From positions 1 to 64,000 of IMG/VR virus record IMGVR_UViG_3300012036_000007: a stretch of DNA of 64,000 nt, one strand, 5' to 3'. The translations under genes were made by a program, and so were the position numbers. The notes under the pieces were generated by a model that saw nothing but the letters and a program-made list of their open reading frames with translations, searched no databases and was not told the DNA's origin. This document shows positions 5,473-57,635 of the stretch, in pieces. Position 1 is the stretch's first letter. Every line of letters begins with the position of its first letter. This stretch comes from a virus.

Positions 5473-5480
5473 GAGAGAAA

Positions 5481-6820: not shown

Positions 6821-6822
6821 AG

Positions 6823-7716: not shown

Positions 7717-7882
7717 GGTATATCGGTTCGAAGACAATTCGCACTGGCATATTTATCGATACCAGCCGACGCAAAAACGCGCTTGCCTGATCGCAGTTTA
7801 TGAGGATTCGCGGCACCCACGAATAGGATTTTCGCTCAAGCATGTGCTTGGGTTTTTGGGGTGCCTAAGGGGTGACGAATAA
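7703..7882 (+). CDS. small hypothetical protein
   Basis: This 59-residue basic protein (MAVSKVYRFEDNSHWHIYRY...) is not recognised. It overlaps the end of the RecT-like gene by 14 nt and the start of the next gene by 11 nt, which suits a tightly packed phage operon. The start is uncertain. Confidence 0.5.
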   Translation: MAVSKVYRFEDNSHWHIYRYQPTQKRACLIAVYEDSRHPRIGFSLKHVLGFLGCLRGDE

Positions 7883-8684
7883 ACGAAGTCCACTTGAAAT
7901 GCCCGCAACTCTACAAGAGTGGCGGGCTGTATTTGGAGACGATCTTGGTTTTGAAACCAATGTCGATCCACGTGCCGTAAGTTTCCCACCCGGCCACCCC
8001 GATAAGATTGCTGAGTTGCGTTCCCGGGTCAGCCGAGGGCAGCGATTGTGGCACCCAGACGACAAGCGAGAAGACTGGGGGGATTTCGTCTTCGATCGAT
8101 CGACGTGGAAGGCGTACGGTGACCAATCCTTTGGCGTGGTGGTCGGGATGGATCGTAAGGACAGACATCGGCACGCGATATGGAAGGCCATTGCTGAACC
8201 CCTTGGGAATCAGAAGCTTCTCTACATCAATGCCCGGGCTGGCTATGTCGATAGCTTTCAGAAGGATCGCGAGTTAGAGCAGATCTACCGCCATGCACGC
8301 AGGATGGGTGCATCGTTCGTGGCGGTTTGTTCCTTGTTCACAGCGAGATGCAAGCAGGTCAAGGATTTGCACGAACGCGAGTCATTGATTACCGGCGGTT
8401 CGATGCAGTGGATGCGGTGGCTAGCTGGCTGGGTGGACAAGGCGATTGTGTGCTGGGGTGAGACACCGTTGATGAATCGCCATGCAGATGTTTTGTGGAT
8501 GCTCTCGCGGACGACCATCAAGGGCCATGTATGGTGTGTCTCATCAAGCGGTGACGAATGGCCACGTGAGGTGTCCTACAACTTGGGGATGGACCGTTTC
8601 GAATTTACTGAGTTGATCGAGGATCACAAAATTGAACACGAAAGAGATGAAATCGATCTTCAAGAAGCAATTGACCGGCAGTGA
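7872..8684 (+). CDS. DUF1643-like protein
   Basis: The 270-residue protein ends in a domain recalling DUF1643: FGVVVGMDRKDRH, then ASFVAVCSLFTARCKQVKDL and AIVCWGETPLMNRHADVLWML at about residues 145-230. DUF1643 proteins are widespread in phages and their biochemistry is not established. The N-terminal 85 residues are specific to this protein. The start could be GTG at 7872 or ATG at 7899; neither has a strong ribosome site. It sits between recombination genes. Confidence 0.65.
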   Translation: MTNKRSPLEMPATLQEWRAVFGDDLGFETNVDPRAVSFPPGHPDKIAELRSRVSRGQRLWHPDDKREDWGDFVFDRSTWKAYGDQSFGVVVGMDRKDRHRHAIWKAIAEPLGNQKLLYINARAGYVDSFQKDRELEQIYRHARRMGASFVAVCSLFTARCKQVKDLHERESLITGGSMQWMRWLAGWVDKAIVCWGETPLMNRHADVLWMLSRTTIKGHVWCVSSSGDEWPREVSYNLGMDRFEFTELIEDHKIEHERDEIDLQEAIDRQ

Positions 8685-15230: not shown

Positions 15231-18200
15231 ATGGCAATTAATTTATCGTCCACGACAATCGCTGAAAATAATTCAATCAACGATGCGGTCGGAACGCTAT
15301 CGGCCACGGATGTGGACGTGGGTGGTACGCTGACGTTTACTTTGGTCTCCGGATCAGGTGACACGGACAACGCATCGTTTTCGATCGTCGGCACCGAATT
15401 GCGAGCAGCAGAGGTTTTTGATTTCGAAACGAAGTCTAGCTACTCAGTGCGTATCAACGTCAACGATGGCACCGATGACTATTCCGAGGCGTTTACGATT
15501 ACGGTAACGGATGGCATAGACTTTATAGAAACCGGATTCAAATTCATCAACTTTCGGAACTCAGAAATATACACGACCGATGATGCAGGCGATACGTTTT
15601 GCGTTAGTGATGTTTATCCTACTACTCGAAACGGAATAACATTTGGCTGGACAAACGGTGCACCTACAGATTCGAACAGAAGCTCAAGCGTCGACCCGAA
15701 ATTTGCAGGTTTTAATGGTACAAATACTGGTTTTATTAAATTCCGCCTAGATTTAACCCCTGGTACTTATCGATTTCGCTCAGCCAGTGGAATCGCGAAT
15801 CAAACTATCAGCACGGGGATCCTTGTAAATCAAGGAAACTCCGCAGGGGAAATTTACCGCGTAGCATCGGTTAGCGTACCGTCCGGCAGCTCGCTCGATG
15901 CTGGTGGTACTGTTCGGACACGAGCTGATTGGTTGGCAAATAACGACTACGTAGAAGCAACAATCACAGAAAGCTTTATAGAGATTGAACGCAATAACGT
16001 CATTCTCTACTTGCAGACGTTCGGTTTTGAGGAACTAGTCGTTCCACTATCCGCAGCAGTGTTGAGCAACGCCACAGATAGCGGTGTTCATGATGGAACA
16101 ATCTTTGCTAAAGAGCCTGAAGGTCACCAAATCGGAAAAATTTCGTCTCCTACTGGTGCTCAAGCTTTTTCTCTTCTGGGGTCGTCATCTACTTACCTTG
16201 CCCTCGAAGATAGAAACGGATCGACCTATCTGGTAACTACGGGGACTCGCATCCCAGACAATTGGACTGATACGGTAACCATTCGGCAGACAACCGACTT
16301 GGAAACGAAAGATACTAATTTCGTCTTGACCGCAACAGCTATTGACAGACCGGTTACTGGGCTGTATTCAGACGTAACTAGCCGAACTCTGAGTGAGAGA
16401 GCGATCACCCGAGCAGTCATCTACGCAGAATTGTGGCCTGGATACGAAGACCAAGCATTTGACTCGGATCAAACAGCGACTAGCACAACTGACCTAAGAG
16501 ACAAAATAAATGGATTGACGCCTGACGGAACTAGCTGGTATCGAATCCGGGTGCAAGACGGAACGTGGACCGGGACAGCGTTTCTAAACAAGAAAGATTT
16601 CGGGGCAGGCGGATTGTTGATAGAGCCTGATACAGGGCACGATCCACTAATTGAGTGTGAAATCGACAACATGCTTCTTCGCAAATGCCATGTTCGGGGA
16701 TTGAAAATCAACCCGTGGGGCGATAGTGCTGGTCAGTATACTTTTAATGGCGGTATCGGATCAGCACCTTACACATTGCTTCGATTTTCGGAACTAAGAG
16801 CTGGGGCTTTTTATGCACCTGGATTTGATATTGATGACTGGGCCGATTGGTCCGATGTGTTTGGGTTTGAATTTTGCGAACAAATTGCCATCCACAATTG
16901 TGAGTTCAATGGTGTGTCGAATTGTGTGAACATTTCCGGAGGGCGGATTTTTAGCCTTGTCGGCAATACCTACAGACAAGTTGTGCGTGATTTCCATGCT
17001 TTAACTACGGCTTTCCGTTTCAGTACTCCACGAGGTGTGTTCGACGACGATATCACCTACTGCGAAATAGTAGATGGTACGTCATGGGATAAACCTGACA
17101 TCCTGAGCCAAATCGCTACCGTCGGAGTTCCGCACGCTGATTATCTTCAGATTCGAAGGACGACAGGAGGCGGGGCCGCTTACCCGACAGGTTCGGCGGG
17201 ATTGAACGGAAGCTCTAATGTAGCTTGGTTTCCAAATGTAATCGGTTTTACGGCTTCAGAAAACCGACTGTACGAAGTGGTATCAGTTACAGGGGACGGA
17301 TTGATAGACCCCCAAAACCCACCTACTGGAACCGGGACAGGAATTGTCTCTGGCAATGTTACTTTTGACTATTCAGCAGAATACGATTTGGGGACTGACT
17401 TTAGAGTGGTTCTAGAAAACAATTGCGTCCTAGCCGATGGAATCAATACAAACGTCGATGATTCGATTTACCCTGACGTACAGTTTGTCATCAATTCAAA
17501 CAATGGCTGGAATAATAATCTTATCATTTCCGCTATCAACAACATGTGCGGAACTAAAAACATCAGAGGCATAGTAGCAGGTAGTGATTCTGAAGTTTAT
17601 GCAGAAAAGAACACCTTTGTTGGACCTGCTGAAAAACCTCTACAAAATGACCAAGCCATCATTAGCGGCGGTCTGGTGTGGGCATCGAGAAACATTGTTG
17701 GTGTCGCAGATTCAGCTCCAAATGTTGAGTCTAACCTAGGCGTGTTAATGAGCGAAAACAACGTCGGGGTTAATTTTCGATCTGGGGCTGTGTCACCGTT
17801 TTTGCCAAACGAAGTTTTAATTGGGACTTTTACACTCCAGGGTTCGGTAGGTTGGGTTTACCCAATCACTGACGACGACACGGTTGACGCCACTGAGTTC
17901 CGAGCAGATATGCAAGGGCAGTTAACGCATAAAGCTGGAACAGCAGGGGCTACGATTACGCCTCTTGCTAATAATGACGTTACAGCACCAACCCTAGAAT
18001 CGATTACGATTCAATCGAGCGGGACAACAGCCAGTCTGCAATTTTCCGAGCCGGTCACAGGTACAACCGTCCCCGTGTTTTCGACAGCAGGGATCGTTGC
18101 TACGTATGTATCGGGTAGTGGCTCGGACGAACTAACGTACTCACTCAGCCGAATTGCCTACTCAACAGATACGCTCACAGCATCATTGGCCGGTGCTGCA

Positions 18201-18749
18201 ATTCTCGATGACTCCGATAATGCTTTGGTTGACGTTACAGGATTTTCGGTAACAAATAATTCAACCCAGCCGGAACCTGACGTAACAGCACCAACACTTA
18301 GCAGCCCAACGATTAGCATCACGGGCACGACAGCAACGCTCTCTGTATCGACAAACGAAGCCAACGGCCTGATCTACTATTTACTCAAAGCCGGATCAGC
18401 TCCAAGCGATGGGGAGATTCTGTCAGCTTCTCAAACCGTGGCTCCTGGCTCAACTGGGGTGATTTCTCTCGGAAGCGAAACGGTTCTTTATGAGACGACA
18501 TACCATCTAGGCGTCTTTCAGCTAGATGCTGCGTTCAACCAATCTGCAACCGTAACTACTTCCGAGACTAGTGGATCGGAGCCTTCCTCGGTAGACACCG
18601 AAGCAATCATCGAGGCAATCGAAGCAGCAACGGCAGCAATCTTGGCAACTACAAGCAAAGCGGCTATCCGTGAAGCGCTTGCAGGTCGTTGGACGAACTT
18701 AGGTACGGGTGCCGACTTTGACGATATTGAAATAGGAGATACACCGTAA
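15231..18749 (+). CDS. putative tail fibre/tailspike with cadherin-like and beta-helix regions
   Basis: This 1172-residue protein is built like a receptor-binding fibre. Residues 1-95 form a cadherin-like repeat (SSTTIAENNSINDAVGTLSA...FDFETKSSYSVRI). The middle, about 400-850, has a repetitive Asn/Gly-rich pattern typical of right-handed beta-helix tailspikes. Two Ig-like modules start with APTL near 920 and 1020 (TTASLQFSEPVTGT resembles the SwmB type). A short helix, EAIIEAIEAATAAIL, near 1125 may trimerise. The DNA is visibly more AT-rich than its surroundings, which suggests acquisition as a host-range module. The ATG at 15231 has only a weak GAG upstream. Confidence 0.75.
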   Translation: MAINLSSTTIAENNSINDAVGTLSATDVDVGGTLTFTLVSGSGDTDNASFSIVGTELRAAEVFDFETKSSYSVRINVNDGTDDYSEAFTITVTDGIDFIETGFKFINFRNSEIYTTDDAGDTFCVSDVYPTTRNGITFGWTNGAPTDSNRSSSVDPKFAGFNGTNTGFIKFRLDLTPGTYRFRSASGIANQTISTGILVNQGNSAGEIYRVASVSVPSGSSLDAGGTVRTRADWLANNDYVEATITESFIEIERNNVILYLQTFGFEELVVPLSAAVLSNATDSGVHDGTIFAKEPEGHQIGKISSPTGAQAFSLLGSSSTYLALEDRNGSTYLVTTGTRIPDNWTDTVTIRQTTDLETKDTNFVLTATAIDRPVTGLYSDVTSRTLSERAITRAVIYAELWPGYEDQAFDSDQTATSTTDLRDKINGLTPDGTSWYRIRVQDGTWTGTAFLNKKDFGAGGLLIEPDTGHDPLIECEIDNMLLRKCHVRGLKINPWGDSAGQYTFNGGIGSAPYTLLRFSELRAGAFYAPGFDIDDWADWSDVFGFEFCEQIAIHNCEFNGVSNCVNISGGRIFSLVGNTYRQVVRDFHALTTAFRFSTPRGVFDDDITYCEIVDGTSWDKPDILSQIATVGVPHADYLQIRRTTGGGAAYPTGSAGLNGSSNVAWFPNVIGFTASENRLYEVVSVTGDGLIDPQNPPTGTGTGIVSGNVTFDYSAEYDLGTDFRVVLENNCVLADGINTNVDDSIYPDVQFVINSNNGWNNNLIISAINNMCGTKNIRGIVAGSDSEVYAEKNTFVGPAEKPLQNDQAIISGGLVWASRNIVGVADSAPNVESNLGVLMSENNVGVNFRSGAVSPFLPNEVLIGTFTLQGSVGWVYPITDDDTVDATEFRADMQGQLTHKAGTAGATITPLANNDVTAPTLESITIQSSGTTASLQFSEPVTGTTVPVFSTAGIVATYVSGSGSDELTYSLSRIAYSTDTLTASLAGAAILDDSDNALVDVTGFSVTNNSTQPEPDVTAPTLSSPTISITGTTATLSVSTNEANGLIYYLLKAGSAPSDGEILSASQTVAPGSTGVISLGSETVLYETTYHLGVFQLDAAFNQSATVTTSETSGSEPSSVDTEAIIEAIEAATAAILATTSKAAIREALAGRWTNLGTGADFDDIEIGDTP

Positions 18750-27863: not shown

Positions 27864-28286
27864 ATGGCAGACGACGATTCGGAAGTGAAGCTGATAGGCC
27901 GGGAGTTGACCATGCTCTGTCGTGCCGTTACCGAGGGGTGGGATATTCCGCAGGAGATGCGGAAGAAAGTCGTCTCCCATTTTCAGCACGTGATTGATGA
28001 TCCGGAAGCGACCCATCGTGAGAAAGACCGAGCGTCTAAGGGTCTGATTGCGGTCGAGAAACTGAGGATGGATGCGATCAAGACGGCCAAATCGATTGTG
28101 GATGAGGCTCCCACGGTGGTCATCAACAACAACGTGGGGTCTAGAGATACGTTGGCTGAGTTCGTGAACGAGATGAGCCCCGAGCAGCAGACTGAGTTTC
28201 TAGTCAAGTATGGAAAAAACGCCACAACCATTCAGGGCCACGCCACGCCAGCTGCAGGAAGTGCCAGCACTTCGGATAGCGACTAA
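27864..28286 (+). CDS. candidate small terminase subunit
   Basis: The 140-residue protein lies directly upstream of the large terminase gene and overlaps it by 77 nt. It is mainly helical, with a basic N-terminal half and a Ser/Thr-rich tail. Size and position fit TerS, but no clear helix-turn-helix is visible, so the assignment rests on position. Confidence 0.5.
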   Translation: MADDDSEVKLIGRELTMLCRAVTEGWDIPQEMRKKVVSHFQHVIDDPEATHREKDRASKGLIAVEKLRMDAIKTAKSIVDEAPTVVINNNVGSRDTLAEFVNEMSPEQQTEFLVKYGKNATTIQGHATPAAGSASTSDSD

Positions 28287-29967
28287 GGGAGCGTGCCGTT
28301 CGCTCGAGACGTTCTTTAGGCTGGCGTGGCCGCATGTTCCTCGCGCTATGGGCGAGCTTGTTTGGGAGCCATACATCCCGGTCGTGTGCCGCCATCTCCA
28401 GGCGGCTTTTGAAGGCAAGATTGGTAGGCTGTCGATCAATCTACCCCCAGGTGTTTTGAAATCGACTTTGGTTTCATGTGTATTCCCAGCATGGGTTTGG
28501 TCTCAGACGCCGGGTGCTGGGATCGTGTCGGTAGGCTATGACGACGGGCTGGCGAAGCGAGATGCGTCTGACTCACGCGATTTGATGCGGACGGAATGGT
28601 ATCGCAGTCTTTGGCCGGAAGTCACGTTTCGGGACGACACTGATGCAAAGGGATATTATCGGTTGACTCAAGGGGGGTGGCGGATGGGCCAGACGTACAA
28701 GAAGCGCCTGACTGGAGATCACCCGGTTTACTTCATATGGGATGATCCGTTGAAGGCCATTGATGCCCATAACGCGAGTCTGATCAAGGAATTGCGGGAC
28801 TGGTACTTCAAGACCGTAAGTACCCGAGGTAAGGCCCGCACTGTCGTCGACGATACGGGTAGTGGGGTGTCGAGTGTCCGGCACATTCTCTGTGGTCAGC
28901 ATCTTTCGGTTTCAGGCCCGTTGATGATCCCAGAGGAGCAGAACGCAATTGACACAGCAGAGGGGCGTGAAGGGCGATGGCATATTGTCAAATTCCCGAT
29001 GCGATATGATCCGGCAATAGCGATGCCAGACCGTGGATTCGGTGGTGAGTATCGGACCGAACCCGGTCAGTTGCTCGACCCATTACGACTGCCAGAAAGC
29101 ACTGTGGCTGATATGGAAATGGACCTTGGCAATGATGCCCATGCCCAATTGCAACAGAACCCGGTCGAAGTCCAAGGCACGATGTTCAAGGCCGACAATC
29201 TGATTGAGATCGATGCGGACGAAGTGCCAGCCGACCTGGATGAGGTTGTTAGGTTCTTCGATAAGGCGGCAACAAAAGACGGAGGATGTCAGACGGCAGG
29301 TGTTTTGATTGGCAAACACAGTCGCCAGATTGGCGAGAAATCCGTATTCAACCCTCCCAAGATCCACTACTACATCTTGGACGACCACAGCGGGCATTGG
29401 GATGTGGACCGCGTCGAAGATGAGATCGTGCTTTGCAAGGACGCGGATCTAGCGGTATGGGGGTTCGATCGATATCGACTTGCAATCGAGGAGGAGGGTG
29501 GAAGCGGAGGTAAGGTCTCAGTGAGGTCGACTGAAAAGCGGATGCAGGGCGTCCAGTTCGAGGCGATCAGTCCCGTGGGGAACAAAGAAGCTAGGGCGAC
29601 ACCGCTTGCGAGAGAAGTCAGGCTAGGCAATGTCTACATCGTCCGTGGATCATGGACCCCTGCATTTAAGACCCAGATGCGTCAGTTTCCCAACGGGAAG
29701 TTGAAGGACAAGATCGATGCGGCTGCGGGTGCTCATCTTTGCCTGGAGGGCACGATTGGAACCAAGAATAAGAAAAAAGGAGCATTGGTGAGTCGTCCGC
29801 GAACGAATGTCATCTGCGTAGCAGCTGGCTGCGATCGACCAATCGAATCCGGTTCCGATTATTGCTGCCCAGAGTGCGAGGTAGTTTCGGGATTCAATGA
29901 TCCAACGATGACTGTCGACCACAGCGATGGTTGCTGCGGGCGGTATTTCAGGGCAAGCAATTCCTAG
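28210..29967 (+). CDS. terL: terminase large subunit with Cys-rich C-terminal extension
   Basis: The 585-residue protein has the packaging ATPase motif LPPGVLKST at 78-86 (Lys84), Walker B YFIWDDP near 177-183, and an RNase H-like nuclease region with VRFFDKAATKDG (about 345-360) and GFDRYRLAIEE. The last 70 residues are unusual: VICVAAGCDRPI, CCPEC, a His and CCGRYF, together about seven Cys that could bind zinc. Most terminases lack this. It packages DNA through the portal encoded next. The start at 28210 overlaps the TerS candidate and has a weak ribosome site. Confidence 0.9.
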   Translation: MEKTPQPFRATPRQLQEVPALRIATKGACRSLETFFRLAWPHVPRAMGELVWEPYIPVVCRHLQAAFEGKIGRLSINLPPGVLKSTLVSCVFPAWVWSQTPGAGIVSVGYDDGLAKRDASDSRDLMRTEWYRSLWPEVTFRDDTDAKGYYRLTQGGWRMGQTYKKRLTGDHPVYFIWDDPLKAIDAHNASLIKELRDWYFKTVSTRGKARTVVDDTGSGVSSVRHILCGQHLSVSGPLMIPEEQNAIDTAEGREGRWHIVKFPMRYDPAIAMPDRGFGGEYRTEPGQLLDPLRLPESTVADMEMDLGNDAHAQLQQNPVEVQGTMFKADNLIEIDADEVPADLDEVVRFFDKAATKDGGCQTAGVLIGKHSRQIGEKSVFNPPKIHYYILDDHSGHWDVDRVEDEIVLCKDADLAVWGFDRYRLAIEEEGGSGGKVSVRSTEKRMQGVQFEAISPVGNKEARATPLAREVRLGNVYIVRGSWTPAFKTQMRQFPNGKLKDKIDAAAGAHLCLEGTIGTKNKKKGALVSRPRTNVICVAAGCDRPIESGSDYCCPECEVVSGFNDPTMTVDHSDGCCGRYFRASNS

Positions 29968-30395: not shown

Positions 30396-32747
30396 ATGGG
30401 TCTACCGATCCCGACCGAAATCAAGAAGCAAAGAGCAGCCGAGCAACAGGCATTCGATGAGGCGTTTAACCGGACGCTATCCGCTGCCCTTTCCGGTTCG
30501 CCTCTTGGACAAGAAAGCTCTAATCCACGAGGTGAAGTCAAATCGTTCAACGGCTGGAACTATCTCGGCATCACTGCCATAGCTAGGCAAGCTGCAAGGT
30601 CTCACCACTATGTCTATGACGGTAGTCACAATGCGAAGTCCAAGCGTGCCAAAGCCAAGTCGATATACGGGTCCAAGTGGCGAAATCTTGCCCAAGACGG
30701 AGCGGCCGATGTGGTCGACGAATCCCATTGGTGTGCCCGGTTGGTATCCAGACCGGGTGGCCGAATATCTATTGGTGTTTTCATTTGGGAGTACATCCAG
30801 CAGATGCACCTCCACGGGGCTTGCATCATCTGGAATCGTCGATCGATTGACGGTAGCCGGATTGTACAGCGGTTGATTATCCCGATGTCGATCGCACATC
30901 GGATCATGCCCGGTGAAGACAGAGCGGCCCCGAATGGTGGTGTCGAGATCAAGATCGATAACGCGGGGTTGGGTTGGTACGCACGCAAGGAATTTGGTGC
31001 ACTGGTCAACAAAGTAATCCCTGTTGAACAGCTATCGGTGGTGAGATACCCACATGCACAATCCAGGGGTGATGGCCAGAGCCCAAGCGATGCAGCCGGC
31101 TGGTGGATCGATCTAGCCACAATGGTCGACATGACTCGCTGGCGGCATATGAAGCGTGGACCAAAACCTCATGCGTTGCTGACATTCGATGATCCGGACA
31201 TCGATGAGGAAAAGCTGAATGAGGTCGAGAAGCGGATGAACCGCAAGTTCGAAGGCGACCGGATGGATGAGAAGTGGGCTGCCATTGGCGGTGGTGCCAA
31301 GATCCAAAGCACAACGACTCCGAAGGATATGAAATATGAAGAATCATTCGATCAAATCGGTCGAGTGATCCTAGCCACCCACGGCGCAGGAGCTGCCATG
31401 GTGGGCCTAACCGACAACATGACCCACGGAAGTATCTCAGCAGCGATCACCCAAGCCAATACCGTTGTGCAAGCCGACTTGGATTTGCTCGGTGAGGACT
31501 TCACGTTGCTCTTTGAGGACTTTGGGCAATCGATGGTCTGCGAGTTCGAAACCCAGCCGATGGATGATCCGGCTGTTGTTGAGACGCAGTTGACGCAAGA
31601 CCTAGCAGCGGGTTGTCGGCTCGGTAAGGAATGGCGTGCAATCCGCGGCCTGCCCCCGTTCGGTGACTGGCGAGATGATGCCCGCGTGACATCCACAGGA
31701 TTCGTCCGTGATGAGGATCCAGAGAACGCCCCAACCACACAAGCACGTCCTGAGATGGTGCTAGGCCGAACCGACTACCCGGCGCCTAAATCGATGTCCA
31801 AGTCGGCACCCAAGTCGTCCCCCAAGGCGGAAAGGGTCAAAGCCGACGACAGTCCGATCGTGGCTGTCGACCTAGATGGGACGTTGGCCGTCCTGGGTAA
31901 GTACGACCCGGATATGATCGGGGAACCAATCAGGTCGTCTATCGAGATCGTACGAAAGCTGGATCGTGCCGGAGTCCGAATTTGCATCTTTACCTGCCGG
32001 GATAATGACGAGCTAGTCAGGCAGTGGTTGGAGGCTAATAGAGTCCCGTTTGATGCCCTGAATGAGAACCTTGCGGGCTTCCCCACCTCGGGCAAGATCT
32101 ATGCGGATGCGTACTTCGACGATCGGGCTGTGAACGTCGATGAGGGGCTTAAAGGAATCGCCCATGCGTTGGGTAAAGAATGGTCGATCAAGCTAGGTGA
32201 GAATCCACACAAGCTAGGTGCGATCATGTTGGAGGTGCCTGCAAAGATGCGGGCAGCTATCAAGGGATTGCAGGGATTGATTCCAGCTGAATCGGTAGCT
32301 CCAGAGGGGCTGGAAGAATGGCCCCATGTGACGGTACTCTACGGAATAACTGGAACACCGATCGAAGAGGTCGTGGCAGAGGTCCGCAAGATTCGACGCA
32401 TCGAGGTATCTGTCGGTGACCTAGGATTTTTCAACCGCGATAATGATTCGGTCGCCAAGTTGGCTGTCGAGTCCGATTACTTGCGGAAGATAAACGGCAA
32501 GTTGTCCGATTCATTCCCGGTCGAGACCCACCACCCCGAATACAACCCGCATATCACGTTGGGCTACGTCCGCAATGACGGGGCGAGCTACAGCAAGGTA
32601 ATGAATCGATTGCGTGGCGAGGTTTGGGAAGCAACCCATGCGGTGGTCTCAGTCGACGGGCGGAAGATCCGCGTACCGCTGGTCCACAAGCCGGAAACCG
32701 TGATAGATCGGATGATGGGCAAGACAGCCTACAGCAACGGCCACTAG
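30396..32747 (+). CDS. portal protein fused to HAD hydrolase and 2H phosphoesterase domains
   Basis: The 783-residue protein has three parts. Residues 1 to about 455 look like a phage portal (VKSFNGWNYLGITAIARQAA, QLSVVRYPHAQ, THGAGAAMVGLTDNMTHGSISAA, GLPPFGDWRDD). After a Lys/Pro/Ser linker, residues about 487-600 form a HAD-like domain: VDLDGTLA (Asp492, Asp494), CIFTCRDND, and YFDDRAVNVDEG. Residues about 625-760 form a 2H phosphoesterase: PHVTVLYG (His644, Thr646) and PHITLGYV (His719, Thr721). HAD enzymes remove phosphates; 2H enzymes open cyclic phosphates or 2'-5' linkages, and the phage anti-CBASS protein Acb1 is a 2H enzyme. The fusion would put twelve copies of each domain on the portal ring. 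The ATG follows TGAGGCC. Confidence 0.85.
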   Translation: MGLPIPTEIKKQRAAEQQAFDEAFNRTLSAALSGSPLGQESSNPRGEVKSFNGWNYLGITAIARQAARSHHYVYDGSHNAKSKRAKAKSIYGSKWRNLAQDGAADVVDESHWCARLVSRPGGRISIGVFIWEYIQQMHLHGACIIWNRRSIDGSRIVQRLIIPMSIAHRIMPGEDRAAPNGGVEIKIDNAGLGWYARKEFGALVNKVIPVEQLSVVRYPHAQSRGDGQSPSDAAGWWIDLATMVDMTRWRHMKRGPKPHALLTFDDPDIDEEKLNEVEKRMNRKFEGDRMDEKWAAIGGGAKIQSTTTPKDMKYEESFDQIGRVILATHGAGAAMVGLTDNMTHGSISAAITQANTVVQADLDLLGEDFTLLFEDFGQSMVCEFETQPMDDPAVVETQLTQDLAAGCRLGKEWRAIRGLPPFGDWRDDARVTSTGFVRDEDPENAPTTQARPEMVLGRTDYPAPKSMSKSAPKSSPKAERVKADDSPIVAVDLDGTLAVLGKYDPDMIGEPIRSSIEIVRKLDRAGVRICIFTCRDNDELVRQWLEANRVPFDALNENLAGFPTSGKIYADAYFDDRAVNVDEGLKGIAHALGKEWSIKLGENPHKLGAIMLEVPAKMRAAIKGLQGLIPAESVAPEGLEEWPHVTVLYGITGTPIEEVVAEVRKIRRIEVSVGDLGFFNRDNDSVAKLAVESDYLRKINGKLSDSFPVETHHPEYNPHITLGYVRNDGASYSKVMNRLRGEVWEATHAVVSVDGRKIRVPLVHKPETVIDRMMGKTAYSNGH

Positions 32748-32935: not shown

Positions 32936-33445
32936 ATGGCAACAGCAGCAGAAATCACGGACGTTTTGGTAGGATGCGAAAACCGGATCAAGGGTATCGC
33001 GACCAAAGCAGTAGACGCCGATGACTTGTTCCAGGTCACGGCCATGAATGCCCTGGCCAACGGGGAATCTTGCGAAGGCCAGACTGCTGATGAGATCCAA
33101 GCTTGGGTGATCAGTGTCGCATATCGTGCTCGCACATCCGCATGGCGCAAGTCAACGGCTGCTAAGCGTGACAGTCGGCGGACGCAAGGTATCGAGCGGC
33201 ATGATGCCATCGAATCAGAGGCACCGTCCGAGGTTGCTGAGGATCGAGAATTGGCCCAAGAATTAGTGAGCCGACTTGAGCAGCTCCCAGCCCAAGCAGC
33301 GGCCATCATTCGTATGCGATACCTTGGCCAGATGGAGGCCAGCGAAGTGGCTGAGGAATTAGGGATCACACGCCAGCAAGTGAATTACAAGCTGTGCCGA
33401 GCCATGACCCGACTGCGAAAACTGTCTGCTGATTTGGTGGCCTAG
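32936..33445 (+). CDS. ECF-like RNA polymerase sigma factor (copy 2)
   Basis: This 169-residue protein is a compact ECF sigma factor. Sigma2 is at about residues 5-85, with DDLFQVTAMNA at 29-39 and IQAWVISVAYRARTSAWRKS, and sigma4 at 115-163 with LPAQAAAIIRMRYLGQMEASEVAEELGITRQQVNYKL, a classical helix-turn-helix. A spacer with many acidic residues links them. It shares 11 identical residues in a row with the first sigma factor. AAAGG lies 9 nt before the ATG. It is better conserved to known ECF factors than copy 1 and is my preferred reader of the GCGCAATC-N13-TGCGTCTA promoters, one of which (degenerate) lies upstream. Confidence 0.87.
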   Translation: MATAAEITDVLVGCENRIKGIATKAVDADDLFQVTAMNALANGESCEGQTADEIQAWVISVAYRARTSAWRKSTAAKRDSRRTQGIERHDAIESEAPSEVAEDRELAQELVSRLEQLPAQAAAIIRMRYLGQMEASEVAEELGITRQQVNYKLCRAMTRLRKLSADLVA

Positions 33446-44297: not shown

Positions 44298-45434
44298 TCA
44301 AACAGAAACAGCAGGCTGAGCCTGACTGACATTTCCTCGCCTATCGAGCTGACGACCCAGCTCTTGAATGTTTATCGCAGCGTTGTGGTCTCGGCCAATT
44401 GAATGACCGCAACCACCGCACTCAAACGTACGAACCGAAAGCGGCATGTCTTGGACATGTCCGCAATCGCTGCACGTCTTTGTGGTCGGCTCGAATCGTC
44501 CAACTTGAACGACGCGACACCCTCGCTTTGCTGCAACGTGCTTGAGTATCGACAAGAACGAATCAAACGCCAAGTCGGAGACCTTACGGCCCCAAAGTCG
44601 TTTCATGCCATCTAAGTTCAAATCCTCAAAACACATCACCGCGTACCGGTCGCAAAGGTTATGGGCCAGTTTGAAGAACCAGTCACGACGGCGGTTTGCA
44701 ATTCGTTCGTGGACTCTCGAAAGTCGATTCTTCGCTTTGCGTCGGTTGTTGCTTCCCTTGGTTTTCGTCGCAAGTTCACGATTCGCTTTCGCCAATTGAG
44801 CACTACCTTGCTTAAAAAACTCCGGGCTGGTGATCGTACTTCCATCATTAAACGTGAGAAAGTCTTTCAAACCGAAATCCGCGCCGCCGACATTACTCGT
44901 TACTGGCGTGGATGGCTTAAATTCTTCGTTCAATGTTGAGAAGCACAACCACAATCGATTCATGCGGTCACGTTTCACCGTGACCGTCTTTATCGTTCCT
45001 TCGATCTCTCTGGAGTTCACAAACTTGTAGTTGTGTCGTCCGATCCTAATCCTGTTGCCACCGAGCAGCTTCCATCCTGCTTGCGTCATCGTGAACGACG
45101 AATACTCTCGCGACTTTTGAAATCCGGGGCGACCTGCTTTGACTCCCTTGCGAGTCTTCAACCACTTGAAAAAACGCTGGTAGGCATTGTCCAAACGCTC
45201 AACGACTTTTTGGACGGACTGCGATCCAACCAGCATCCAATCTTCATGACGTTTGCGGAGTTTCGCAATGTGTTTCTGGAGTTTCGCCTTCGAACAATAC
45301 TTGCCGAACAGACGGAAGTACGTCCGTTGAAATGCCACCGCGTGATTCCAAATACGACCGTACGTAGAAATCATGCGATGCAATCGCACATTCCTGCGTG
45401 TTTCGAACAGTCGGTATTTGTACGTTCGTCGCAT
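44298..45434 (-). CDS. tnpB: TnpB RNA-guided nuclease (IS200/IS605 family)
   Basis: The 378-residue protein has the TnpB plan: RRTYKYRLFETRRNVRLHRMI start, OrfB domain, RuvC-I GADFGLKDFLTF (Asp kept), RuvC-II CFEDLNLDGMKR (Glu kept), a zinc finger CSDCG...CGGCG, and RuvC-III GRDHNAAINI (Asp kept). All catalytic residues are present, so it could be an active RNA-guided DNA nuclease. A longer reading frame adds 67 residues upstream, but the family start fits the Met at 45434. A 12-bp inverted repeat lies in its leader. Confidence 0.9.
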   Translation of the reverse strand: MRRTYKYRLFETRRNVRLHRMISTYGRIWNHAVAFQRTYFRLFGKYCSKAKLQKHIAKLRKRHEDWMLVGSQSVQKVVERLDNAYQRFFKWLKTRKGVKAGRPGFQKSREYSSFTMTQAGWKLLGGNRIRIGRHNYKFVNSREIEGTIKTVTVKRDRMNRLWLCFSTLNEEFKPSTPVTSNVGGADFGLKDFLTFNDGSTITSPEFFKQGSAQLAKANRELATKTKGSNNRRKAKNRLSRVHERIANRRRDWFFKLAHNLCDRYAVMCFEDLNLDGMKRLWGRKVSDLAFDSFLSILKHVAAKRGCRVVQVGRFEPTTKTCSDCGHVQDMPLSVRTFECGGCGHSIGRDHNAAINIQELGRQLDRRGNVSQAQPAVSV

Positions 45435-45465
45435 CGGTTGTCTGTGAAAGGTGCCCCGCACCGGC

Positions 45466-45537
45466 TGACACACAACTCGCGCAGAAGAATCCGCAAGAAT
45501 CGTTACCGGTTTGGAGCGTATCAAAAGTTGTGTGTCA
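45466..45537. repeat. 12-bp perfect inverted repeat before tnpB
   Basis: TGACACACAACT at 45466-45477 and AGTTGTGTGTCA at 45526-45537 flank 48 nt. It lies 32 nt before the tnpB start on the minus strand and inside the element. It could fold in the tnpB mRNA leader or bind a regulator. Confidence 0.6.
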
Positions 45538-45788
45538 CGAGTTATTATAGCGATACCTACTTGCAGGGCAACACGTATTTGGTCGGATCGACGCCATATC
45601 GAACGGCGTCGATCCGAATCGCTATCCATCCCCATAGCTAAAGCAGGGGGCTTTCCGCGATGTCAGAGTAATTGAGAGTTGGAAGCAGTTGTCCGGTCAC
45701 CGAATTGGCGGATTCGACTAGGTGCTGTCGTTCGTGCGCAAACTGCTAAGATGCTCCCCATCATCAACAAAGGCATGGGGCAGAGCGA

Positions 45789-48700
45789 ATGCAGGCAGCA
45801 GAATTCATTGAGCGCTGGACGAAGTCCGGCGGAGCGGAGCTAGCAAATTCGCAGGCGTTCATAGTGGAGCTGTGTGACCTATTAGGTGTCGATCATCCAG
45901 ACCCGACGATTGACTCTGGCGAGGACCAAAACACGTACGTCTTCGAAAAGGCAATAAAATTCAACAATGGGGACGGAACCTTCAGCGACGGACGAGTCGA
46001 CCTGTATAAGCAAGGCAGCTTCGTTTTTGAGTCGAAGCAGGGCGTTGAGAAGAAAAACGCATCGGCAGATGAACGACTGGCTACGGTTACCCGCAATGCC
46101 AGACAACGAAGCGGGACTGGCAAACGAGGCTCCCGTGAATGGGAAAAGTCGATGTTTCGGGCGAGAGGTCAGGCGAAACGTTACGCGGAAGCCCTCCCGG
46201 AGTGGCCACCTTTCTTGGTTGTTGCCGACATCGGCTATTGCTTTGATTTGTACGCGGACTTTAGCGGCACAGGGAAGAACTACCAGCCGTTTCCCGACCC
46301 ACGTAGCTATCGAATCGAAATCACTCGACTCAGTGACGAGAATGTACGTGGTGACCTTCGGTTGCTATTCACAGGTCCGCACCAACTCGACCCTAGCAAA
46401 CGATCGGCAGAGGTTACGCGGGAGATTGCGACTCGACTGGCAAAGCTGGCCAAGAGCTTGGAGGCCCAACACGACCCGGAGGTTGTAGCGGGTTTTCTGA
46501 TGCGATGTTTGTTTACGATGTTTGCCGAAGATGTCGACCTAATCAAGCGAGATGGATTCACCGAATTGCTGTTGAGTCTTCGCACAGAGCCGGACAACTT
46601 CGTGCCAATGGTGGAGGGTCTTTGGACTGCGATGGACTGCGGTGAGTTCTCCCAGTTCTTGCGCGAGAAGGTCCGTCGATTTAACGGCAAGTTCTTCAAG
46701 GACAAGACCGCTTTGCCGGTAACGCTAGACCAGTTGCAACTCCTGATCGAGGCAGCGGGCGACTACGACTGGAAAGATGTCGAACCAGCGATATTTGGAA
46801 CCCTGCTCGAAAGAGCGTTGGATCCGGTGGAACGTCACAAGCTAGGAGCACACTACACGCCACGTGCTTACGTTGAGCGGTTGGTGATGCCAACGATCAT
46901 CGAACCATTGCGTGAGCAGTGGGATGCGACCTACGCGGCTGCCACACGACTGGATGACGAAGGCAAGCGAAAAGATGCGGTCAATCTTTTGCGTGAGTTT
47001 CACGGTGAGCTATGTGAAGTCAGGGTCTTGGACCCGGCATGTGGAAGCGGAAACTTTCTTTATGTCGCGATGGAGTTGATGAAACGGCTAGAGGGGGAAG
47101 TCGTAGCGACTCTGGCAAGTTTCGGGGACAACGTTCTGCCGGGAATCACGATCGACCCGCATCAATTCTTGGGGATCGAGATCAATCCGAGGGCTGCAGC
47201 GCTGGCGGAGTTAGTCTTGTGGATCGGGTACGTACAGTGGCACAAACGAACGCGAACAGAAACGACGCCTCCCGAGCCAATCCTGCGAGATTACGGCAAC
47301 ATCGAGTGCCGCGACGCAGTGTTGGATTGGGACAGAATCGAGCCGGTTGTCGATGATGACGGCAATCCCGTCACTCGCTGGGATGGGCGAACAACGAAGC
47401 CGCACCCGGTCACGGGCGAAGAGGTGCCCGATGAAGATGCACGCGTTCACGAGCAGCGTTACATCAATTCAAGAAAAGCCGCGTGGCCCGAAACGGATTA
47501 CATCGTCGGCAATCCGCCGTTCATTGGCACGTCGCGGATGCGAGACGCACTGGGCGACGGCTACACCAAGGTGATCCGATCGACGTACAGCGAACTGCCC
47601 GAGTCGTGTGATTACGTGATGTACTGGTGGCACACGGCGGCCGAAAGAGTGCGGGCCGAACAAGCCAACCGCTTCGGTTTGATCACGACAAACAGTCTTC
47701 GTCAAACGTTCAATCGCCGAGTCGTCACACCGCACTTGCAAGCCAAGAATCCGCTTTCGATCGACTTCGCGATCCCAGATCACCCGTGGGTGGATACGGC
47801 GATGTGCGCTGCGGTGCGGATCGCGATGACGGTTGGCGTTCCGGGCGAATCGGCTGGCGTGTTGAACCGCGTGGCATCGGAAGAAGAACGCGGAGAGGAA
47901 GCGGCAGCAATCGAGTTCAAGACTTCGAGCGGGATCATCCAAGCTGACTTGCGAATTGGCGCGGACGTTGGTTCGGCAATCACTCTTCAAGCGAATGAGG
48001 ATCTCAGCAATCGAGGCTATTGCCTTTTCGGCCAGGGGTTTGTCCTTGAGGCAAAAATTGCTGCCGACCTAATTGCAAAAGGATGCGGAGCGACTATCCA
48101 TCCGTACCTGAACGGGCGAGATGTTACGCAGCAGGCTCGCGGTGTTTTTGTAATCGACGTCTGCGAGTTGAAGTCAGAAGACGTACGTCAACGTTTCCCT
48201 GCCGTCTACCAGCATCTGCTAGATTTCGTCAAACCCGAACGTGATCAAAATAACCGTAAGAGTCGCCGAGATAATTGGTGGGTGTACGGTGAGCCAAATC
48301 CAAAGCTCCGAAAACAGCTTGTCGGGTTGCATCGCTATATCGCAACCGCGGAGACGTCAAAGCATCGCTTCTTTGTGTTACTTGACGATGCGATCCATCC
48401 CGACAATGCATTAATTGCTTTCGCGGTAGATGATGTTTCCATCCATGGCGTGCTTTCGAGCAAAATTCACGTTTGCTGGGCACTCGCCGCTGGTGGTCGA
48501 CTCGGGGTAGGTAATGATCCGCGTTACAACAAAACCCGCTGCTTCGAGACCTTCCCATTCCCCATCACTGACGCAGCCAGCAAGAAACGCATTGGCGACT
48601 TGGCTGAGCAACTCGACGCCCATCGCAAGCGGCAGCAAGATCAACACGCAACGCTGACGATGACCGGCATGTACAACGTGCTGGAGAAGTTGCGATCCGG

Positions 48701-49202
48701 TGAAACACTGACGGCCAAGGATCAAACCATCCACCAGCAAGGACTCGTCTCGGTACTGAAACAGATTCACGACGACCTCGATGCCGCCGTGTTCGACGCC
48801 TACGGATGGCCCCACGATATGGAAGACGAAGAGATCTTACAACGCCTAGTCGATTTGAATCACGAACGAGCCGAAGAGGAAAGTCGTGGAATCGTTCGGT
48901 GGTTGCGTCCGGACTTCCAAAACCCCGACGGTGCGACACAAACCGCCTTTTCTGGCCAAGAGAAAAAGATTCCCGCCAAGAAAGCCGCTACGAAGGTCAA
49001 GAAGCAACCTTGGCCCGCGACCTTGCCAGAGCGAGTGAAAGTCGTTCGCGATTCACTTCTAGAACTGCGGACTCCAATATCGTCCGACGACATGGCCAAG
49101 CGGTTCACTCGGGCGGCGAAGACCAATGTGAACCAGATACTCGACACGCTAGTCGAATTGGGGCAGGCACGACTCACCGATGACTCGCAATATGTCCGGT
49201 GA
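45789..49202 (+). CDS. MmeI-like (type IIL/IIG) restriction-modification enzyme
   Basis: The 1137-residue protein combines nuclease and methylase. The N-terminal part has Asp71-X9-Glu81-Ser-Lys83 (DLYKQGSFVFESK), the exact D-X9-ExK spacing I recall for MmeI. The gamma-type methylase has motif I LDPACGSGN (Asp415) and motif IV NPPF (575-578). The region 600-950 should recognise DNA (FPFP near 920 is common in the family). A winged helix at about 1085-1130 ends it. Such single proteins methylate one strand and cut at a distance. It may defend the lysogen or infected cell against other phages. The ATG has GGGGCAGAGCG upstream. Confidence 0.83.
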   Translation: MQAAEFIERWTKSGGAELANSQAFIVELCDLLGVDHPDPTIDSGEDQNTYVFEKAIKFNNGDGTFSDGRVDLYKQGSFVFESKQGVEKKNASADERLATVTRNARQRSGTGKRGSREWEKSMFRARGQAKRYAEALPEWPPFLVVADIGYCFDLYADFSGTGKNYQPFPDPRSYRIEITRLSDENVRGDLRLLFTGPHQLDPSKRSAEVTREIATRLAKLAKSLEAQHDPEVVAGFLMRCLFTMFAEDVDLIKRDGFTELLLSLRTEPDNFVPMVEGLWTAMDCGEFSQFLREKVRRFNGKFFKDKTALPVTLDQLQLLIEAAGDYDWKDVEPAIFGTLLERALDPVERHKLGAHYTPRAYVERLVMPTIIEPLREQWDATYAAATRLDDEGKRKDAVNLLREFHGELCEVRVLDPACGSGNFLYVAMELMKRLEGEVVATLASFGDNVLPGITIDPHQFLGIEINPRAAALAELVLWIGYVQWHKRTRTETTPPEPILRDYGNIECRDAVLDWDRIEPVVDDDGNPVTRWDGRTTKPHPVTGEEVPDEDARVHEQRYINSRKAAWPETDYIVGNPPFIGTSRMRDALGDGYTKVIRSTYSELPESCDYVMYWWHTAAERVRAEQANRFGLITTNSLRQTFNRRVVTPHLQAKNPLSIDFAIPDHPWVDTAMCAAVRIAMTVGVPGESAGVLNRVASEEERGEEAAAIEFKTSSGIIQADLRIGADVGSAITLQANEDLSNRGYCLFGQGFVLEAKIAADLIAKGCGATIHPYLNGRDVTQQARGVFVIDVCELKSEDVRQRFPAVYQHLLDFVKPERDQNNRKSRRDNWWVYGEPNPKLRKQLVGLHRYIATAETSKHRFFVLLDDAIHPDNALIAFAVDDVSIHGVLSSKIHVCWALAAGGRLGVGNDPRYNKTRCFETFPFPITDAASKKRIGDLAEQLDAHRKRQQDQHATLTMTGMYNVLEKLRSGETLTAKDQTIHQQGLVSVLKQIHDDLDAAVFDAYGWPHDMEDEEILQRLVDLNHERAEEESRGIVRWLRPDFQNPDGATQTAFSGQEKKIPAKKAATKVKKQPWPATLPERVKVVRDSLLELRTPISSDDMAKRFTRAAKTNVNQILDTLVELGQARLTDDSQYVR

Positions 49203-51655: not shown

Positions 51656-52318
51656 ATGGGCAATCAAGACATAGACACCGAATCATTCGCAACCATGCTG
51701 CTCGACACCAACTACCCATGGTGTTGGCAATGTGGGCGAATGCCACCGGGTGACCGACCTACGCAATGGAATGCCCCTTGGCTGCTCCACCGTGCTCACT
51801 TGGTCAACAAGCCCCGCGTAGAAGACAGACGGGTTTGCGTCCTGCTCTGCCCAAAGTGCCACACCCAATTCGATAGCGGTTGCGGGCTTTCACTGGCGGA
51901 GATGCTGTGGATAAAACGCAAGTTTGACCCCGCATATTACGACCGGCCATTCATGCAGAAATTTGCCACGAAGAAGTTGCCTGCGATACGTCAGCCCAAT
52001 GGGTGGATATACAACGCACGGCGGGGGCAGCCCAAGCGGATTCTGACCCTTCGAATGAAGGGCAAGTACTGGGATCAGATCAAAGACGGGACCAAGACTA
52101 CCGAGCTGCGATTGAGAACCGACTATTGGCGGAAGCGATTGATTGGTCGCGAATACGATGAAATCCACCTGTGGCGAGGTTATCCGCCCAAGTCGGACAC
52201 GTCCAAGTTGTTGGTGCGAAAGTGGCGGCTGGTCAGTGTGGCCACCGTCTTGCATGAGGAATTTGGACCCGAACCAGTTGATGTGTTTTGCATCGATGTT
52301 GCGATGGCTCTTAGGTGA
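51656..52318 (+). CDS. HNH-like zinc domain fused to ASCH domain
   Basis: The 220-residue protein has CWQC (23-26), LHRAHLV (His45, His48) and CPKC (65-68), the layout of a small HNH-like zinc module, then an ASCH domain at about 128-215 (ILTLRMKGKYWDQIKDGTKTTELRLR...REYDEIHLWRGY). ASCH domains bind RNA or modified nucleosides. The ATG is 7 nt after site H and lacks a ribosome site. Targets are unknown; it may cut or process RNA or modified DNA. Confidence 0.72.
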   Translation: MGNQDIDTESFATMLLDTNYPWCWQCGRMPPGDRPTQWNAPWLLHRAHLVNKPRVEDRRVCVLLCPKCHTQFDSGCGLSLAEMLWIKRKFDPAYYDRPFMQKFATKKLPAIRQPNGWIYNARRGQPKRILTLRMKGKYWDQIKDGTKTTELRLRTDYWRKRLIGREYDEIHLWRGYPPKSDTSKLLVRKWRLVSVATVLHEEFGPEPVDVFCIDVAMALR

Positions 52319-52327
52319 AGGTGGTCA

Positions 52328-52642
52328 ATGAGTTCCCCGAAAAGAATCCAACGAAAACGAATCAAGGGTTGGCGAATGCCTCCCAATACTTCGTGTGTGA
52401 CAAGACCGGGCAAATGGGGCAACCCTTTTGATACCGGCAAGCAGTTTCGCGAGATCCTCGCGCCTTTGATCGAAGGGGATCTAGCCATCAGATGCAGTGC
52501 GGTAAATCACCGGCACATGCTGCGGATTGCCCAAGAGATCAGGGAGCTACGTGGCTTCAATCTAGCGTGCTGGTGTCCAGTTGTTTCTTGCTGCCATGCA
52601 GACGTACTTTTGGAATACGCCAATAGAAGGATGCAGAAATGA
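52328..52642 (+). CDS. DUF4326 protein
   Basis: The 104-residue protein has the DUF4326 features: RIQRKRIKGWRMPPNTSCV, RPGKWGNPF, then LRGFNLACWCPVVSCCHADVLLE at the end. DUF4326 proteins are widespread in phages, with no established function. It lies 9 nt after the HNH-ASCH gene and overlaps the next start. Confidence 0.82.
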   Translation: MSSPKRIQRKRIKGWRMPPNTSCVTRPGKWGNPFDTGKQFREILAPLIEGDLAIRCSAVNHRHMLRIAQEIRELRGFNLACWCPVVSCCHADVLLEYANRRMQK

Positions 52643-53031
52643 GCAAGTCACCGAACGTGGATCTCAATAAGCGAGTGCCGGCCTACCGGGTTCAAGACGC
52701 GGACGGCAGGGGCCCGTGGAAGCCGGGATTCTCTAAAGTGTGGGTCCAGGACCGGACCGATGACGAGTTTGCCGCATTGGCCCCGATTGCTGAGCAGTTC
52801 CCTGATCTGGTATTCCCGTCCGGGTATCACTTTGGATGCGGCTGCGAGACCGTAGATCAGCTCAAGCTGTGGTTCAATGTCGAAGAATTTAGAATCCTTC
52901 GCAGTCACGGTTATCACGCCGTATCGCTGAAGGTGGATCGGATGATCGCGCGATCAGATGTGCAGTGCGTATTCGGGCGACGGCTTGCTCTGAATCGCAA
53001 GGTCAGGAAGTTCGCGTTATACGGTAGGTGA
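52639..53031 (+). CDS. phage hypothetical protein
   Basis: The 130-residue protein begins KRVPAYRVQDADGRGPWKPGFSKVWV and has GYHFGCGCETVDQLKLWFN and a GYHAVSLKVDRMIARSDVQCVF segment. The pattern is familiar from phage proteins next to DUF4326 genes, but no function is known. It is coupled to the gene before by an ATGA overlap. Confidence 0.7.
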   Translation: MSKSPNVDLNKRVPAYRVQDADGRGPWKPGFSKVWVQDRTDDEFAALAPIAEQFPDLVFPSGYHFGCGCETVDQLKLWFNVEEFRILRSHGYHAVSLKVDRMIARSDVQCVFGRRLALNRKVRKFALYGR

Positions 53032-53037
53032 AGTGGA

Positions 53038-53069
53038 GTCAAATCACTAGATGCGTCTAGGGATTTGAC
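53038..53069. repeat. 32-nt near-perfect palindrome
   Basis: GTCAAATC at 53038-53045 pairs with GATTTGAC at 53062-53069, and CTAGA pairs with TCTAG inside, with one mismatch and a TGCG loop. It starts 7 nt after the previous gene. There is no T-run, so it may be a DNA-protein site or a processed mRNA end. The TGCGTCTA inside it is part of the dyad. Confidence 0.7.
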
Positions 53070-53211
53070 AGCGAGATCAAAACGCCCGCGTAGGGGCATC
53101 AACCCTGCGACGGGATCGAAAGAGCCGGCATCGCACATTTGATGACTTCCGCACCATACCAACTACTCGCTAGCTCGGGCGTAGGCATGGTGCTACAGCA
53201 GTATTTATGGC

Positions 53212-53265
53212 GGCGGCGGGCACTCATCGACTTCGCAAGCTTCAGATCGATCAGTGCCCGCCGCC
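53212..53265. repeat. 13-bp perfect inverted repeat before MuF-like gene
   Basis: GGCGGCGGGCACT at 53212-53224 and AGTGCCCGCCGCC at 53253-53265 flank 28 nt. In RNA this GC-rich stem would be very stable and would bury the GTG at 53254, so it may control translation of the head operon. A smaller CCCGAT/ATCGGG stem follows at 53282-53306. Confidence 0.72.
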
Positions 53266-53322
53266 TCGGCTTTGATAGCCCCCGATATTGATCTTCGGAA
53301 TCGGGCCATCAATCATCTTCCC

Positions 53323-53988
53323 ATGGACGTGCCAGACCGCGAAGAACTCGAAAACCAAATTGCTGCCATCATCATTCTATTGTGGATGGACTTCTCGCAG
53401 ACTCGTTATCAATCGCGACAAGCAGCATGGCAGCGGTTCAACACGCTGTTCAATGAACGGGCCAAGCCCGTGGTCTCTCGCATCTACGGCAATGCCAGGG
53501 TCGATCTAGGTCAGTCTTTCGGGGTGAACTACCAGACACCGATCAACTCCAGTGCTTCCGGTGTCGGAACAGTCGATGCAACTGCACCGCCGATCTCGCT
53601 ACGCGGGTTAGGTGCTCGAATGACTGAACTTGCTAGACGGGTCTTTGACTCGTTTTGGGCCCGCATCGAACCGTGGATTCGCGGTGAGGAAGACAAGCCC
53701 GAATTCAAGGACTACGAAGCGGATCGGACTGCAACAGATGTGGTCACCCGATCTCACACCGAAGGGGAGATGGACGGAGCTGGCGATGTGAATGACCAAA
53801 CGGGCAAGCAAATCGTAGCGGTGTGGTTCACAGAACCCGGTGCTTGCCCAGTCTGTAGCCCACTGCATGGGACCGTCCAATTGTGGCGCAGACGGTTTCC
53901 GGAGGGGCCACCCGCACCGCACCCGAACTGTAGATGCTATCTCGAATGGCGAGAAATGAGCGCCGGTGAGATCGGAACAGCCGGTTAG
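53323..53988 (+). CDS. MuF-like head morphogenesis protein
   Basis: The 221-residue protein ends with the Mu gpF-type signature: GKQIVAVWFTEPGACPVCSPLHGTVQLW...APHPNCRCYLEW. These proteins are minor capsid parts or act in head assembly. The N-terminal half is helical. I use the ATG at 53323; a GTG at 53254 in the same frame lies inside the strong inverted repeat. The ribosome site is weak in both cases. It begins the head gene block. Confidence 0.75.
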   Translation: MDVPDREELENQIAAIIILLWMDFSQTRYQSRQAAWQRFNTLFNERAKPVVSRIYGNARVDLGQSFGVNYQTPINSSASGVGTVDATAPPISLRGLGARMTELARRVFDSFWARIEPWIRGEEDKPEFKDYEADRTATDVVTRSHTEGEMDGAGDVNDQTGKQIVAVWFTEPGACPVCSPLHGTVQLWRRRFPEGPPAPHPNCRCYLEWREMSAGEIGTAG

Positions 53989-54080
53989 TTGGTTGGTCGC
54001 CTTGTGTTGAGGTTGGTAATCGCTCGTCCGACACTTGCCGCCATTAAGTTCAACCAACTTTCTGGAGGCAAATCGTCCAC

Positions 54081-54266
54081 ATGGGTAACCGAACGGGTCG
54101 CAAGACCATCGCATCGACCGAAACCAAAGCTGCGGTGCTGAAGGTCCACAAAGGTAATCCCGATCTGACGGCACCTCAAATCGCCGAGAAGTTCATCGGG
54201 GTCAGTGCTCGCCAAGTTCGATACTGGATCGGACAAGCTAAATCCAAGGAGCGAGCCAATGCCTAA
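54081..54266 (+). CDS. small HTH protein
   Basis: The 61-residue protein is almost wholly a helix-turn-helix (VLKVHKGNPDLTAPQIAEKFIGVSARQVRYWIGQA). It overlaps the protease start by 8 nt. GGAGG lies 12 nt upstream. Its place among head genes is odd; a small regulator or packaging adaptor is possible. Confidence 0.6.
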   Translation: MGNRTGRKTIASTETKAAVLKVHKGNPDLTAPQIAEKFIGVSARQVRYWIGQAKSKERANA

Positions 54267-55692: not shown

Positions 55693-55750
55693 AGCGGGGA
55701 CGGAATTTCCCTTTTCGTAATCCGGCTAACAGAGTTTAGGAGTAAACCAC

Positions 55751-57016: not shown

Positions 57017-57064
57017 TCTCTAGGTGTTTACCAAAACGATTTTTAGTTACTGGAGATTTTAGAA

Positions 57065-57589: not shown

Positions 57590-57635
57590 TCAATACGATC
57601 CTCGAGAGTTTTTTGCCTTTCGCTCGATGATCTAG

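Follow-up and report, generated by a model that had tools for sequence, protein, structure and literature searches.

A predicted phage portal protein that carries HAD phosphatase and 2H phosphoesterase domains in a single reading frame

Is a reading frame that appears to join a phage portal to two enzymatic domains a genuine gene, and if so, what could the enzymes be doing there? The question arises from a virus contig in IMG/VR that is 64,569 bases long, the first 64,000 of which were analysed here (the window). An initial annotation had placed at 30396-32747 one uninterrupted frame encoding a portal, a HAD domain with an intact DxDGT motif and a 2H domain with both HxT motifs, and our analysis bears out its coordinates, frame and domains. 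The plus-strand ORF has 783 codons and no internal stops, the domains follow in the order portal, HAD phosphatase and C-terminal 2H phosphoesterase, and DLDGT at residue 492, HVT at 644 and HIT at 719 are all present. The gene, its parts and the neighbouring terminase genes are as follows.

27864-28286, plus strand: probable small terminase (32% identity to the matching L007 gene; weak match to PHROG 18995, E 0.09)
28210-29967, plus strand: large terminase (PHROG 38, E 1.6e-48)
30396-32747, plus strand: portal-HAD-2H fusion protein, 783 aa (ORF, Pfam, PHROG, motifs)
30534-31700, plus strand: portal core, residues 47-435 (PF04860, PHROG 12 and 2662, profile match to 6tba)
31701-31853, plus strand: linker rich in Lys, Ser, Pro and Ala, residues 436-486, with low conservation
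31854-32195, plus strand: predicted capless HAD phosphatase, residues ~487-600 (PHROG 1238, Foldseek match to 2obb, motifs)
32211-32690, plus strand: predicted 2H phosphoesterase, residues ~606-765 (PF13563, Foldseek, motifs)

An early worry was that a sequencing error had wrongly joined two genes. The same frame is present in contigs L002 (same region, 100% identical over 7.5 kb) and L003 (10.9 kb with a single mismatch), which are possibly not wholly independent samples. The stronger argument against an artefact comes from two diverged homologues, which are also the homologous fusions that the initial annotation had proposed to look for. L007, a 100-kb viral contig, encodes at 4992-8684 a 1230-aa frame with the order portal-HAD-2H-ADPrib_exo_Tox, 44% identical to the window protein over 799 shared columns, and L019, a contig in a bacterial MAG, encodes at 4582-8481 a 1299-aa frame with the order portal-HAD-2H-ART, 46% identical. 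With four further occurrences of the single frame, two of them diverged, a frameshift or assembly artefact is ruled out; chance motif matches are ruled out by the profile and fold evidence. Identity between the window protein and these two homologues is 53–54% in the portal, 50% in the HAD and 42–44% in the 2H part. In both homologues an ADP-ribosyltransferase (ART) lies C-terminal of the 2H domain, with the motif NxNQPRxxxGxW, common to the two, ahead of it. Motif and ART are both absent from the window protein, and scanning a subset of the ORFs of the window record revealed no ART gene. Among 392 genomes of the phylum of L019 the portal-HAD-2H match occurs in one, L019 itself, the other matches covering mainly the HAD part in ORFs of ~120–480 aa, and of the 38 records in a cultured-phage collection that matched part of the fusion query none covered more than 80% of it. 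The window fusion is followed by a sigma-factor-like gene (32936-33445), with a 28%-identical stretch downstream of the fusion in L019 (9466-9879).

The portal part is recognised by the Pfam model Phage_portal (PF04860) over residues 101-349, with 51.9 bits against a cut-off of 39.1, as well as by the portal families PHROG 12 and 2662, and a profile comparison matches it to the HK97-family portal 6tba (E 0.002). Judged by these profiles, the portal of the fusion protein is of HK97 type. The large terminase gene sits directly upstream, and the same position is kept in L007 (52% identity) and L019 (36% identity). Between portal and HAD, the linker of residues 436-486 is only 24–36% identical to its counterparts in L007 and L019, against 50–54% for the flanking portal and HAD regions; it is a candidate tether or cleavage region. 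Portals in general form a dodecameric ring with the C-terminus directed towards the capsid interior. Where the enzymes would sit on the portal is taken from this general knowledge, since the full-length AlphaFold2 model, built from a 5-sequence alignment, is of low confidence (pLDDT 49) and too poor to interpret.

The head module of the record lies elsewhere, at 51656-60642; replication genes and others occupy the 20–27 kb that separate it from the terminase and portal upstream.

53254-53988: MuF-like head morphogenesis protein
54205-55692: second capsid-like match (PHROG 617)
55751-57016: HK97-type capsid protein
58298-59917: head-tail connectors

Also in the record are an MmeI-type restriction-modification protein (45789-49202, with MmeI_N, helicase spacer, methyltransferase and TRD), adjoined on the opposite strand by a transposase (44298-45635), and a 1172-aa frame (15231-18749) whose GC3 is unusually low (0.43 against ~0.6) and whose sole match is a weak one to cadherin; it may encode an adhesin-like protein of recent acquisition.

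Within the HAD domain the motifs read as DLDGT at 492, FTC at 532, SGK at 565 and DD at 575, giving D492/D494, T533, K567 and D575/D576 as the catalytic residues, and all of these motifs are kept in the alignment with L007 and L019. No Pfam HAD model matched the fusion protein at E<1. Residues 477-589 are covered by PHROG 1238, a HAD family annotated as 'phosphoheptose isomerase' (E 6e-22), and the same region matches the polynucleotide kinase family PHROG 415 (E 6e-9) and, more weakly, another, PHROG 505 (E 0.005). The NCBIfam model HAD_phos_BT0820 also finds it (E 3e-7), with 30.7 bits far below the equivalog cut-off of 165; an open-access literature search turned up no report on the function of BT0820. 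In Foldseek searches of the PDB the HAD half is closest to BT_0820 (2obb, E 4e-6), with 1xpj also matched (E 2e-4). From its length of 114 aa and from the model, this HAD is probably of the capless (C0) kind, lacking a cap insert. A PNKP-type 3' phosphatase was not assigned, as the HAD_PNKP model gave no listed match to the fusion protein at E up to 1.

The 2H domain is recognised by Pfam 2_5_RNA_ligase2 (PF13563) over residues 636-739, with 37.3 bits against a cut-off of 27, and its motifs are H644xT646 and H719xT721. Both HxT motifs are kept in 22 aligned 2H relatives, the exception being L065, where PHIC replaces the second. An AlphaFold2 model restricted to HAD and 2H, made from a 34-row alignment, has a mean pLDDT of 89, and with the Foldseek matches it confirms both predicted folds; the two HxT motifs together with the bilobal fold of the model place the domain in the 2H superfamily. 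The subfamily is another matter. Foldseek ranks Usb1, Acb1, LigT and plant CPDase together for the 2H half (E 4e-7 to 1e-4, with human Usb1, 6d2z, best at 4e-7 and Acb1 at 2e-6) and also matches it to BCSR5 phosphodiesterase, so that the fold does not discriminate between subfamilies. The domain was not assigned to Acb1, as the Pfam Acb1 model misses its curated cut-off (24.4 bits against 27, E 2.6e-5). We also sought the features characteristic of Acb1, its aromatic base-stacking residues and C-terminal lid (Y12, W74, F107, W147, E141); in the sequence alignment no lid Trp could be aligned and the base-stacking residues were not recognisable. Six residues before the second catalytic histidine, in our reading of the alignment, the window 2H has His and that of L007 has Tyr. 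Nor was it assigned to ThpR/LigT: the equivalog model for RNA 2',3'-cyclic phosphodiesterase, TIGR02258, scores 16.0 against a cut-off of 65.7.

A scan with the 2H domain returned 38 viral loci, the near-identical L002 and L003 copies included, and most of these are long frames, many exceeding 1,000 aa. For the most part they encode large polyvalent proteins of several domains, with two further types of portal-2H protein among them. By Pfam, the domain is joined to a portal in L049, to a Mu-type portal and MuF in L042 and to a Mu-type portal with a weak ART match in L058, the Mu-portal match being below the Pfam cut-off in both of the latter. Elsewhere, again by Pfam, it accompanies LPD5, LPD1, LPD38 and ART-PolyVal (L045), LPD1 (L060), PBECR1 (L040), ddrB-ParB and a helicase (L044), or poly(A) polymerase and ART-PolyVal (L051). 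In L004 (2248-6692) the portal gene is followed, after a 2-base gap, by a separate 924-aa ART-PolyVal/2H protein, in which we also read a C-terminal metalloprotease-like HExxH motif, and in the cultured phage Tunturi_5 the head-tail genes flank one for a 1362-aa ART-PolyVal/2H/GNAT protein. Scores above the Pfam Acb1 cut-off were obtained for several relatives, namely L044 (37.7 bits), L051 (36.1), L045 (30.1), L060 (28.3) and L065 (27.5); the L065 protein (3103-6447), in which PHIC stands at the second HxT, has a weak LAGLIDADG_3 match upstream, a possible intein. An independent association of HAD and 2H is found in the 235-kb phage L011, whose gene at 4342-6444 joins a HAD of this group to a polyvalent InPase domain and adjoins a 2H-SAK gene. 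In a tree of the 2H domains the window protein groups with its L007 and L019 counterparts in a single clade (99/98), and the L004 protein is the nearest neighbour of this clade (82/77). The label 'fused to portal' requires three changes on this tree, with which a single origin of the portal fusion followed by later losses may also be compatible. Taken by its sequence, the window protein belongs to the phage polyvalent proteins, which hold several enzymatic domains and are encoded with virion or packaging genes.

How much of this is new? The initial annotation knew of no described portal of this type, which does not hold for the portal-2H combination: Iyer et al. (2017; PMC5512222) report 2H domains fused to MuF or portal domains and propose that they act as RNases, by analogy with the RNase domain PBECR occupying the same place, or destroy the nucleotides of counter-invader systems. 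A 2022 review (PMC9503650) takes 2H-portal/MuF fusions as a hint that the enzyme is packaged in the head and injected to counter signalling by SMODS, cyclic nucleotides and CRISPR systems. The anti-CBASS idea of the initial annotation is therefore a published prediction. The main text of PMC5512222 mentions no HAD phosphatase alongside portal and 2H and uses neither 'phosphatase' nor 'haloacid', and we found no report of a HAD in a portal-2H architecture in the text of open-access papers. Since portal-2H fusions have been both reported and interpreted, the novelty is confined to the HAD phosphatase inserted between portal and 2H, which appears to be undescribed in the open-access literature and is present in three diverged phages.

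What would the two enzymes do together? A 2H enzyme yields a 2'- or 3'-phosphate end and HAD enzymes remove phosphates; by this family chemistry the pair would therefore work in sequence. We envisage that the C-terminus lies on the capsid-interior side, as in other portals, which would place the enzyme pair, in about 12 copies, within the head where the DNA exits. The pair would then be at hand when DNA enters the cell, either still tethered or, once freed at the variable linker, carried in together with the DNA. Cleavage of a cyclic or a 3'-5' phosphodiester by the 2H would yield a 2'- or 3'-phosphate, and its removal by the HAD would make the step irreversible. The substrate, the least certain step, may be an alarm nucleotide of the host, of the sort used in CBASS or type III CRISPR, and not damaged RNA. 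For Acb1 the product is linear GpAp with a 3'-phosphate (PMC9117128), and by analogy this is the kind of end that a HAD phosphatase could remove. That the virion carries a pre-made enzyme, as the initial annotation proposed with RNA-end repair or anti-CBASS action in mind, stands as the best reading, on the basis of the context of packaged polyvalent proteins. We take the protein most likely to be a virion-carried polyvalent effector in which the 2H cuts a host alarm nucleotide and the HAD removes the phosphate, a reading that we hold tentatively, at somewhat short of even confidence. A narrower picture, in which a portal-borne coupled 2H/HAD machine irreversibly destroys a defence nucleotide at the entry point moments after DNA ejection, seems to us unlikely as it stands. 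Alternatively, the enzymes on the portal might have a role late in infection, in the cell where the phage is assembled.

The choice of a nucleotide signal over RNA as the substrate is a cautious preference, made because of the polyvalent context, the Acb1-like scores of several relatives and the failure to detect an RNA ligase (PF09414), RtcB or a tRNA gene in the record, which is possibly incomplete; in the PF09511 RNA-ligase search the control itself found nothing. The ART of L007 and L019, a typical virion-injected effector domain, supports the effector reading in general. The sub-threshold Acb1 score of the window 2H and the Acb1 lid and stacking residues that could not be placed in the alignment count against the nucleotide-signal reading. 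The serious rival is RNA-end healing, in which the 2H would open 2',3'-cyclic phosphates left on tRNA or other RNA by host anti-phage RNases, the HAD would remove the resulting 2'-phosphate, and the ends would be ready for a host ligase. PMC7824862 describes end healing by phage enzymes in this order, 2H first and HAD phosphatase second, the matches of the window HAD to the two polynucleotide kinase families fit it, the related L011 HAD matches HAD_PNKP weakly (9.5e-5, below the cut-off), and LigT and plant CPDase are among the fold matches. Yet the record shows none of the ligation or tRNA genes just listed, the 2H falls well short of the ThpR/LigT cut-off, and the main text of PMC5512222 states that polyvalent-type 2H domains were never seen with RNA ligases; on balance we consider healing rather improbable as the actual role. 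If the 2H were instead a Usb1-like RNase, an injected 3'-5' exonuclease that leaves a cyclic phosphate and trims or degrades host RNA for takeover, with the HAD cleaning the ends, the top rank of Usb1 in Foldseek would be explained, as would the occurrence of PBECR1 beside 2H in L040, given the RNase proposal by PBECR analogy in the main text of PMC5512222. However, sequence identity to Usb1 is only 9% and other 2H folds score nearly as well, and we judge this reading quite improbable.

Two further readings seem very unlikely. The C-terminal ART of L007 and L019, together with the plant Appr>p cyclic phosphodiesterase among the fold matches, would suit a role in NAD+/ADP-ribose metabolism, with 2H and HAD processing phosphorylated ADP-ribose products of a partner ADP-ribosyltransferase, but neither the window protein nor the scanned subset of gene products includes an ART. 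Since both domains belong to an essential structural protein, they could also serve a non-enzymatic or late structural role, such as DNA packing at the portal, their catalytic motifs being kept by ancestry only; against this, three homologues that are no more than 44–46% identical have kept every catalytic motif of HAD and 2H, next to a poorly conserved portal-HAD linker. Returning to the virion-carried effector, the architecture shared by three diverged phages suggests a 'cut, then remove phosphate' cargo directed against defence signals or RNA ends. Head-packaged counter-defence by portal- or MuF-fused 2H domains is a published prediction, for which, as for any HAD partner, our literature search found no report of an experimental demonstration. 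Because the two enzymes are here covalently joined to the portal, their presence in virions, copy number and timing lend themselves to direct testing. Retention of the HAD partner limits the chemistry to reactions with a terminal phosphate among their products, and the effector domains known from portals now include a HAD phosphatase.

Several known systems can be compared with the protein. With the Acb1 anti-CBASS nuclease of phages T4 and FBB1 (7t26/7t27) it has in common the 2H fold with two HxT motifs, although Acb1 is free whereas the window 2H sits on a portal, misses the curated Acb1 cut-off and lacks recognisable lid and base-stacking residues. The BT_0820-type HAD phosphatase (2obb) is alike in fold and HAD motifs, at 26% identity and a Foldseek E of 4e-6, but on the corresponding NCBIfam model the window HAD reaches only 30.7 of the 165 bits required of an equivalog. 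The healing enzymes of phage RNA repair, a 2H and a HAD of the PNK or Swiss-army-knife families as described in part of PMC7824862, would perform the same two activities in sequence; in the window these are borne by a capsid protein, and the record yielded no ligase. There is also a likeness to the published 2H-portal/MuF polyvalent proteins, which share the 2H domain C-terminal of the portal, the polyvalent context and the predicted packaging and injection against nucleotide-based defence, and to which the branch described here adds, in three phages, a HAD phosphatase.
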